Assembly (NCBI RefSeq): GCF_002788215.1
Contig: NZ_CP024845.1
Coordinates: 2,232,001-2,296,000 of the forward strand
Direction of reading: 5' to 3'
Length of the DNA stretch: 64,000 nt
Source of the DNA: Halohasta litchfieldiae
Lineage (GTDB): Archaea; Halobacteriota; Halobacteria; Halobacteriales; Haloferacaceae
How positions within the stretch are numbered: position 1 is the stretch's first letter; the number at the start of each line of letters is the position of its first letter. Below are positions 19,101-21,365 of this stretch, one piece after another. The notes below the pieces were generated by a model. It was not told the origin of the DNA. It was given only the letters and a program-made list of their open reading frames with translations, and did not search any database. A program made the translations under genes and the position numbers.

Positions 19101-19211
19101 TCACTGATTCGTATCCCGTTGCCGCAATTAAGGGTTACTGTTCACTCCCCGTCTGACATCTGTCTGCCATAAGAGAAGGTTCAAATAGTATGCTGATAAT
19201 AGTCACACCCG

Positions 19212-19769
19212 ATGAGCAAAATCACGTTCCGTGCCGACGACGATCTCGTCAGTCGGCTAGAGGCACTCGACGCCTCGAAAAGCGAGGTGATGCGAGAGGC
19301 ACTTCGCGCCCACCTCGAGACGACGGACCGTGAGTCGACCCCGTCCGACACTCAGACGGACAGCGAGGACGTCACTATCGACGATCTGGTGACCGACCGC
19401 CTCGACCAACTGGTGGCCGAACGAGAATCAGCTCGTCGACAGACACAGCCACCGGCTACGGCACCGGATATCACTGTAAACGTCTCCCTAGAGGGTGTTA
19501 CTGCCGACGATGTGTCGGTCGACCACGAGTCGACTGGCCGTAAGACATCCAACCGCGGAGAGCAATACGGCCAGCCGGAGCCAGCCGCCACCGACTGCGC
19601 ACAGTGCGGCGAGACGGTCGACGACGAGCACGTCTACTGTCCCAACTGCGGCGAGAAAACCAGCCACAGGCTGTTCTGTGAGTGCGGCGACGAGATCCAG
19701 TCCGATTGGGGATTCTGCCCCAGCTGTGGCCGTCGAACACCCGCAGCCGACGTGTTAGACAACGCATAA
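19212..19769 (+). CDS. cdrL: ribbon-helix-helix plus zinc-ribbon regulator, CdrL-like
   Basis: This is a 185-residue protein in three parts. Residues 1-40 are a ribbon-helix-helix DNA-binding domain ([27 protein letters not shown]). A disordered acidic linker follows. About 130-180 form two zinc ribbons (CAQCG, CPNCG, CECG, CPSCG). Position and layout match CdrL, the activator of the cdrS-ftsZ2 operon described in Halobacterium; the operon itself lies next downstream here. Motif copies around the cdrS promoter are likely binding sites of this protein or of CdrS. Confidence 0.85.
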
Positions 19770-19803: not shown

Positions 19804-19889
19804 TGTCTTACAACGTGTGTCTTACATTCGCCGGTACTTTTATATACATTCAGCATAACGATACAGTTGCGTAAGACAGTCGTCTTACA
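19804..19889 (+). promoter_or_regulatory. cdrS-ftsZ2 promoter with GTCTTACA operator array
   Basis: TGTCTTACA occurs twice in direct repeat (19804-19812 and 19818-19826, 14 bp apart) upstream of a TATA box (TTTTATATA, 19838-19846). A perfect inverted repeat of the same word, GTAAGAC-agtc-GTCTTAC, sits at 19871-19888, just where transcription should start. The cdrS ATG is at 19981, so the leader would be about 110 nt, long for a haloarchaeon. The layout suggests activation from the upstream sites and repression from the palindrome. The assignment of sites to CdrL or CdrS is inference. Confidence 0.7.
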
Positions 19890-19980
19890 GTGTACGTCGG
19901 TCGGACGAAAACGGTCCCCCCCGACGGTAGCACGCACAATGCGTGCCGTACTGTCGACTGACTTACCGGGGAATGTAAGC

Positions 19981-20163
19981 ATGGAGCGTGTGACACTACG
20001 AATTCCGAAGCAGCAAATCGAGGAAGTCGAGGAAATGGTCGACACCGGCCAATTTCCGAACCGGAGCGAGGCGATCCGGTCGGCTGTCCGCGATATGCTC
20101 AACGAACACGATGACGCAGAGCCACGACGATCAAACACCGAGCGCAACTGGGTGAAAGCATAA
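19981..20163 (+). CDS. cdrS: short ribbon-helix-helix cell-division regulator CdrS
   Basis: This is a 60-residue single RHH domain: [19 protein letters not shown] as strand and helix one, then [14 protein letters not shown]. The start at 19981 is chosen because RHH domains open with the DNA-contacting strand. An in-frame ATG at 19867 would place the operator palindrome inside the coding region. The stop codon overlaps the ftsZ2 start (TAATG), so the two are coupled. In Halobacterium the cdrS-ftsZ2 operon controls division. Confidence 0.9.
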
Positions 20164-21365
20164 TGCAAGATATCGTTCAGGATGCGCTCGAAAACGCCGA
20201 GGCCGAACAGCGAGACATGGATGCCGCACTCGATGACGACGACGAGTTCGGCGATCCACGGATCGTCATCGTCGGCGCTGGCGGTGCCGGAAACAATACG
20301 ATCAATCGATTGTATAACATCGGCGTCGACGGCGCGGACACGATTGCGATCAACACCGACAAACAACATCTCAAGATGATTGAGGCCGACACCAAGATCC
20401 TGGTCGGGAAATCCCTGACCAACGGGCTCGGTGCCGGTGGCGATCCGGAGATGGGCGAGCGTGCCACCGAGATGGCCCAGGGAACGATCAAGGAGGTCCT
20501 CGGTGAAGCCGACCTCGTGTTCGTCACCGCGGGCATGGGTGGCGGTACCGGTACCGGTGCCGCACCCGTCATCTCGAAGATCGCCAAAGAGCAGGGCGCA
20601 ATCGTCGTCGGGATGGTCTCGACACCGTTCAACGTCGAGCGAGCTCGGACAGTCAAAGCCGAAGAGGGTCTCGAACGACTCCGCAACACCGCGGACTCGA
20701 TCATTGTCCTCGACAACAACCGGCTTCTCGACTACGTCCCGAACCTCCCAATCGGCAAGGCCTTTTCGGTGATGGACCAGATCATCGCCGAAACCGTCAA
20801 AGGGATCTCGGAGACGATCACCCAACCGTCGCTGATCAACCTCGACTACGCTGATATGTCGTCGATCATGAATCAGGGCGGCGTCGCGGTGATGCTCGTC
20901 GGCGAAACGCAGGACAAAAACAAGACCCAAGAAGTGGTCAACGAGGCGATGAACCATCCACTCCTAGATGTCGACTATCGCGGCGCATCCGGTGGTCTCG
21001 TCCACATCACTGGCGGCCCGGACCTCACACTCAAGGAGGCCGAAGGGATCGCCAACAACATCACCGAGCGACTCGAAGCGAGCGCGAACGTGATCTGGGG
21101 GGCCCGCATTCAGGACAACTACAAGGGCAAAGTCCGCGTCATGGCGATCATGACCGGTGTCCAGAGCGCACAGGTGCTTGGTCCAACAACGCAGAAACAG
21201 GCTGACAAATCCAAACAGAGTATGGGTCAGCAGCATCAGTCGTTCGATGCAAGCACAAACATCGACGCGACCGAGGCAAAGCCAAAGAAGACGTCGTGGG
21301 AGTCCGACGGCGGCACCGACGAAGTCGAAACGGAAACGAGCAACGGGCTCGACGTCATCCGCTAA
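20163..21365 (+). CDS. ftsZ2: cell division protein FtsZ2
   Basis: This is a 400-residue FtsZ. GGGTGTG at 126-132 is the tubulin signature, [12 protein letters not shown] is the N-terminal nucleotide loop, and the T7 loop N226-L-D228-Y-A-D231 has both catalytic acids. A 30-residue acidic N-terminal extension and an acidic, poorly conserved C-terminal tail are present. The coupling to cdrS identifies it as FtsZ2, which in haloarchaea drives constriction after FtsZ1 assembles. It forms part of the midcell ring. Confidence 0.95.

Follow-up and report, generated by a model that had tools for sequence, protein, structure and literature searches.

An array of GTCTTAC words at the cdrS-ftsZ2 promoter, conserved across Halobacteria, is a probable operator of CdrL

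Two ribbon-helix-helix (RHH) proteins of the haloarchaeal division locus cdrL-cdrS-ftsZ2, CdrL and CdrS, have been mapped by chromatin immunoprecipitation sequencing (ChIP-seq). In Halobacterium salinarum, the only reproducible CdrL site lies upstream of cdrS-ftsZ2, and CdrL has been reported in Halobacteria only (PMC7439475). In Haloferax volcanii, overexpressed FLAG-CdrS gave 18 sites, and the cdrS promoter is absent from the published table (PMC8406309). Here we describe a stretch of 64,000 nucleotides from Halohasta litchfieldiae (contig NZ_CP024845.1, positions 2,232,001 to 2,296,000; hereafter the window), in which an array of GTCTTAC words stands between cdrL and cdrS-ftsZ2, where the CdrL operator of the CdrSL network should be. 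Judging from sequence comparisons, we consider this array to be probably that operator.

The core of the array, O2, is an inverted repeat with perfect arms around a non-palindromic 4-bp spacer, AGTC (Table 1). The word GTCTTACA occurs exactly three times in the window, and all three copies lie inside 19805-19889. The spacing from the TATA box puts the start point of cdrS-ftsZ2 near 19868-19871, so the leader is expected to be about 110 nt long, and relatives likewise have a leader. The original prediction, made from the window sequence, described the word twice in direct orientation ahead of the TATA box, a palindrome at the expected start point and a leader of this length, and these sequence features were confirmed. 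It overlooked two further words, one just before the start codon (O3) and an inverted mid-leader word present in many relatives. In 200 dinucleotide shuffles of the window, GTCTTACA averaged 0.94 copies vs 3 in the window, and neither the palindrome nor four GTCTTAC words within 90 bp were seen in any shuffle (0/200). Together with the conservation across the class described below, these shuffles rule out a chance cluster of words. As expected of an RHH operator, a short word is repeated, inverted and direct, about one helical turn apart and beside an RHH gene.

To follow the palindrome across genomes, the pattern GTAAGAC-N(2-7)-GTCTTAC was searched genome-wide. It is exact in 156 of the 167 genomes of the family and in 333 of the 341 genomes of the class, with a single copy in nearly all of them, and it is present in each of the 80 named relatives compared. 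Across a sample of the phylum, 51 of 53 genomes inside the class have the palindrome vs 3 of 242 outside. Loss of the motif in relatives had been named beforehand as a refutation of the original prediction; the motif is retained, and its conservation throughout the class supports the proposal that the cdrS-ftsZ2 promoter has an RHH-type operator array made up of these words. Most of the non-matching genomes that were checked retain the palindrome in imperfect form, one or two mismatches away from the exact sequence (L111-L114, L171-L175). Two haloarchaeal assemblies that are 97-98% complete (G089, G315) contain no clear cdrS match and no palindrome, and an assembly gap is the likely cause. Genomes with two cdrS loci (G048, G168) have two palindromes. 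In Haloferacaceae archaeon XH8, two near-identical cdrS loci (L041, L048) have one palindrome each, and the cdrL frame of one copy is broken early (148 aa). Extra palindromes elsewhere were considered as further CdrL targets; the two inspected (G057, G070) stand beside unrelated genes, and this candidate was rejected. The motif was presented originally as one with no known description, and we found none in the published texts searched, a search that left figures, supplements and preprints outside its range.

The layout was compared in 81 loci including the window, with offsets counted from the palindrome start. The palindrome spacer is 4 bp in 61 loci and 5 bp in 20. An upstream GTCTTAC, or its one-mismatch form, stands at -52/-53 in 61/81 loci, directly before the B recognition element (BRE) and TATA box. 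Most relatives have a single upstream copy, and the doubled word is a Halohasta feature. Haladaptatus and Halorussus have a pair of words (GTAARAC-N3/4-GTTTTAC) as their upstream site. The inverted mid-leader word is often found at +65 to +68, and the last word lies at about +95 to +101, 20-31 nt 5' of the start codon.

We rebuilt the CdrS word from the promoters of its ChIP targets, because the published logo exists as a figure only. The ftsZ1 promoters of 27 haloarchaea contain GTCAGAC-N4-GTCTGAC with a mean of 1.26 mismatches, vs 3.11 against the GTCTTAC form, and the spacer is 4 bp in 26 of them. The Haloferax sulfurifontis ftsZ1 site coincides with the published -50 location, as counted on the sequence. 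Upstream of hisB, another CdrS ChIP target, the repeat is exact in two Haloferax genomes, and the dacZ promoter has a CdrS-type site in some genomes, which is weak in Haloferax. The CdrS and CdrL-type operators share a common layout and are one base apart per half-site; correspondingly, the window palindrome has one mismatch to GTCAGAC-N4-GTCTGAC in each half. At position 3 of the DNA-facing strand, 81/81 CdrL proteins have K and 81/81 CdrS proteins have R, and the CdrS N-terminus MERVTLRIP is invariant (81/81). We guess that the position-3 residue may read the base that differs.

CdrL, which the original prediction named as known to act on this operon in Halobacterium, is the best candidate, because one palindrome per genome fits the single CdrL site seen by ChIP-seq in Halobacterium salinarum. 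The palindrome is also nearly confined to where CdrL occurs, taking the distribution of CdrL outside the class from PMC7439475. Provided that the array is a CdrL operator, we lean towards repression of cdrS-ftsZ2 as the sign of its action, because the most conserved element, the palindrome, spans the start point, and archaeal regulators bound there are usually repressors (PMC8406309). In the model that we propose, two CdrL RHH dimers would occupy O2, whose inverted GTCTTAC half-sites span the predicted transcription start, while O1, five helical turns upstream beside the BRE/TATA, and O3 in the leader would act as helper half-sites. CdrL on the array would thus block or gate initiation at cdrS-ftsZ2.

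The origin of the array was examined in 41 cdrS loci from outside the class, mostly from methanogens (L176-L186, L201-L230), beside 50 haloarchaeal loci. GTCTGAC or GTCAGAC stands upstream of cdrS in 38 of the 41 outside loci, with 71 copies, and these words form arrays between the TATA box and the start codon. The top 7-mers are GTCTGAC and its one-base-shifted overlap TGTCTGA; GTCTGAC has no copy in a far-upstream control and about 0.5 copies in all in shuffles. GTCTTAC occurs in 2 of the 41 loci, and the 50 haloarchaeal loci contain 219 copies of GTCTTAC vs 9 of GTCTGAC. The outside-class CdrS proteins have R-T-R at positions 3, 5 and 7 in 38/41 cases, and methanogens are without CdrL, which is reported in Halobacteria only (PMC7439475). 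Three distant CdrS-like proteins (L227, L229, L230) have K at position 3 and, upstream, GTCCGAC as a third half-site variant. Read most simply, these data suggest that ancestral CdrS controlled its own operon by way of an array in the leader, which later became that of CdrL in Halobacteria. The array would then descend from a CdrS autoregulatory array of GTCTGAC words that persists in methanogens, and the half-site would have changed from GTCTGAC to GTCTTAC upon the arrival of CdrL, freeing the promoter from CdrS and placing it under CdrL. The order of this switch, from CdrS array to CdrL array, is the one that we infer.

The CdrS word is also found on the other side of cdrL. GTCTGAC is the commonest 7-mer of haloarchaeal cdrL promoters, present in 32 of 58 deduplicated loci vs 1.24 in shuffles (maximum 5), mostly 48-61 bp 5' of the cdrL start. 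Because cdrL promoters have the CdrS word, a reciprocal loop is predicted, in which CdrS may control cdrL and CdrL, in turn, cdrS-ftsZ2. The action of CdrS on cdrL is a prediction, since the 18 published CdrS sites do not include cdrL (PMC8406309).

Several points weigh against CdrL as a repressor bound to these words. The CdrL ChIP-seq is from another species and covers a region, not base pairs. The length of the O2 spacer differs within the class (2-6 bp), which is unusual for rigid cooperative binding. A simple K3/R3 recognition code is doubtful, as the leader words of the three distant CdrS-like K3 proteins read GTCCGAC. Regarding the sign of CdrL action, the published cdrL deletion carried second-site mutations (PMC7439475). 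Finally, an RNA role is possible for two of the words.

This last point can be extended to a tentative alternative, in which the words act mainly in RNA. GUAAGACRR at the mRNA 5' end would pair with YYGUCUUAC before the Shine-Dalgarno (SD)-like stretch, alternating with a hairpin of the palindrome, and would control cdrS-ftsZ2 translation or stability. The evidence for such a leader RNA helix is moderate. RNAalifold picks the helix of the first with the last word (1:4), whose first flanking pair is intact in 86/86 loci (72 G-C, 13 A-U and 1 G-U) and whose second is intact in 79/86. Covariation of the 1:4 flanks exceeds that of shuffles and slid controls, while the flanks of the palindrome itself (1:2) are without covariation and those of the first word with the untranscribed upstream word (1:O1) covary weakly. 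In four loci (L113, L114, L171, L173) the right half of the palindrome has decayed, and words 1 and 4 are still paired. In addition, ribosome profiling in Halobacterium salinarum suggests that the operon is controlled post-transcriptionally (PMC8303175). However, the same word also stands upstream of the TATA box, outside the transcript, and the seven core pairs barely vary, as expected from sequence recognition. Independent paired changes are few: the first-flank changes share branches in both arms, and two such events were counted. The window copy of the helix has one mismatch, and Rfam gave no covariance-model match up to E 1, so that no known leader RNA family was recovered. A broader scenario joins both roles: a new RHH protein would have captured the ancestral CdrS array by a one-base switch, giving rise to the loop, and the words would also have been recruited into an alternating leader RNA helix controlling translation of the division operon. 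We regard this scenario as speculative and rather improbable as a whole.

It is also conceivable, if unlikely, that CdrL activates cdrS-ftsZ2 from O1, with O2 setting the start point or the basal level; activation was also part of the original prediction. O1 has the position usual for archaeal activator sites and keeps a fixed distance from O2, and co-expression of cdrL with cdrS-ftsZ2 has been reported under metal stress (PMC7439475); against this stands the palindrome over the start point, which is better conserved than O1 and in the usual place of repression. Autoregulation by CdrS bound to the array itself, as probably in methanogens, was part of the original prediction (as autorepression) and could draw on half-sites one base apart and on outside-class arrays of the CdrS word in the same place, but it is very improbable in haloarchaea and is disfavoured here, given that CdrS sites have GTCTGAC and not GTCTTAC, that GTCTGAC is rare in haloarchaeal cdrS leaders, that the published FLAG-CdrS sites do not include the cdrS promoter (PMC8406309), and that the palindrome follows the class possessing CdrL.

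Besides the array, the beginning of the cdrS gene shows unusual codon usage. When 411 codon columns are ordered by how far they depart from local synonymous usage, codons 3-8 take ranks 1, 2, 3, 5, 9 and 15. The Thr codon is ACA in 50/50 cdrS loci vs 3% of the Thr codons in ftsZ2, and CTA is used in 41/50 vs 1% of the ftsZ2 Leu codons. Rank 4 belongs to cdrS codon 60 (GTG) and is explained by the ftsZ2 ribosome-binding site; therefore, the measure works. Because codons 3-8 stay on rare codons across haloarchaea, these data point to a nucleotide element overlapping them.

The features of the window are collected in Table 1. The open reading frame (ORF) list and Pfam give the gene order cdrL, cdrS and ftsZ2 on the plus strand, and cdrL also adjoins cdrS-ftsZ2 in the haloarchaeal loci inspected. 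For the window CdrL, the match to the Pfam model "CdrL-like, middle region" stays below the cut-off. The closest named match of the window CdrS is from Halohasta litorea, with 97% over the protein.

Table 1 Coordinates of the array, the flanking genes and associated features in the window.
Feature	Position	Strand	Description
CdrS-type words upstream of cdrL	19151..19168	+	GTCTGAC 19151-19157; degenerate GTCTGCC 19162-19168
cdrL	19212..19769	+	ORF; RHH_1 domain, CdrL middle region (below cut-off), double zinc ribbon (Pfam)
O1a	19805..19812	+	GTCTTACA; extra upstream copy
O1b	19819..19826	+	GTCTTACA; immediately 5' of BRE/TATA, 52 bp before palindrome
TATA box of cdrS-ftsZ2	19838..19846	+	TTTTATATA
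5' leader	19870..19980	+	Before cdrS; start point inferred from TATA spacing
O2, core operator (probable)	19871..19888	.	GTAAGAC-AGTC-GTCTTAC; at predicted start point
3' arm of possible leader RNA helix	19958..19966	+	Pairs 19871-19879, one mismatch in window; RNAalifold, pair counts
O3	19960..19967	+	Degenerate GACTTACC 5' of SD-like GGGG; GTCTTACC in nearly all relatives
cdrS	19981..20163	+	RHH_1 protein, 60 aa; ORF and Pfam
cdrS codons 3-8	19987..20004	+	CGT GTG ACA CTA CGA ATT; synonymous sites frozen on rare codons
ftsZ2	20163..21365	+	Both tubulin/FtsZ domains; start overlaps cdrS stop; ORF and Pfam

The timing of archaeal cell division is largely open, and a likely control site of cdrS-ftsZ2 is now defined for a whole class. 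The predicted targets of CdrS and CdrL are set apart by a single base, and the locus may offer a traceable case of regulatory rewiring, with one promoter array passed between two regulators. Haloferax volcanii, in which work on cdrS and ftsZ2 is under way, would allow each step to be tested.

Among described systems, the CdrSL network of Halobacterium salinarum (PMC7439475) is the nearest, having the same cdrL-cdrS-ftsZ2 order with CdrL bound only upstream of cdrS-ftsZ2. That study mentions no motif in the text searched, whereas the word, its layout and its conservation across the class are defined here. The Haloferax volcanii CdrS site (PMC8406309) is likewise symmetric, and the ftsZ1 and hisB targets have an 18-bp inverted repeat with a 4-bp spacer. 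However, its half-site is GTCTGAC and it stands upstream of promoters, whereas the window array is built of GTCTTAC and has its palindrome over the predicted start point. Escherichia coli NikR, one of the nearest relatives of CdrS with a solved structure, is also an RHH regulator, and the half-site TCATAC of its operator GTATGA-N16-TCATAC (PMC7055735) resembles TCTTAC. NikR differs in that its half-sites are 16 bp apart and are bound by a tetramer with a nickel domain, whereas CdrL has zinc ribbons and the half-sites of its probable operator are spaced by 2-6 bp.
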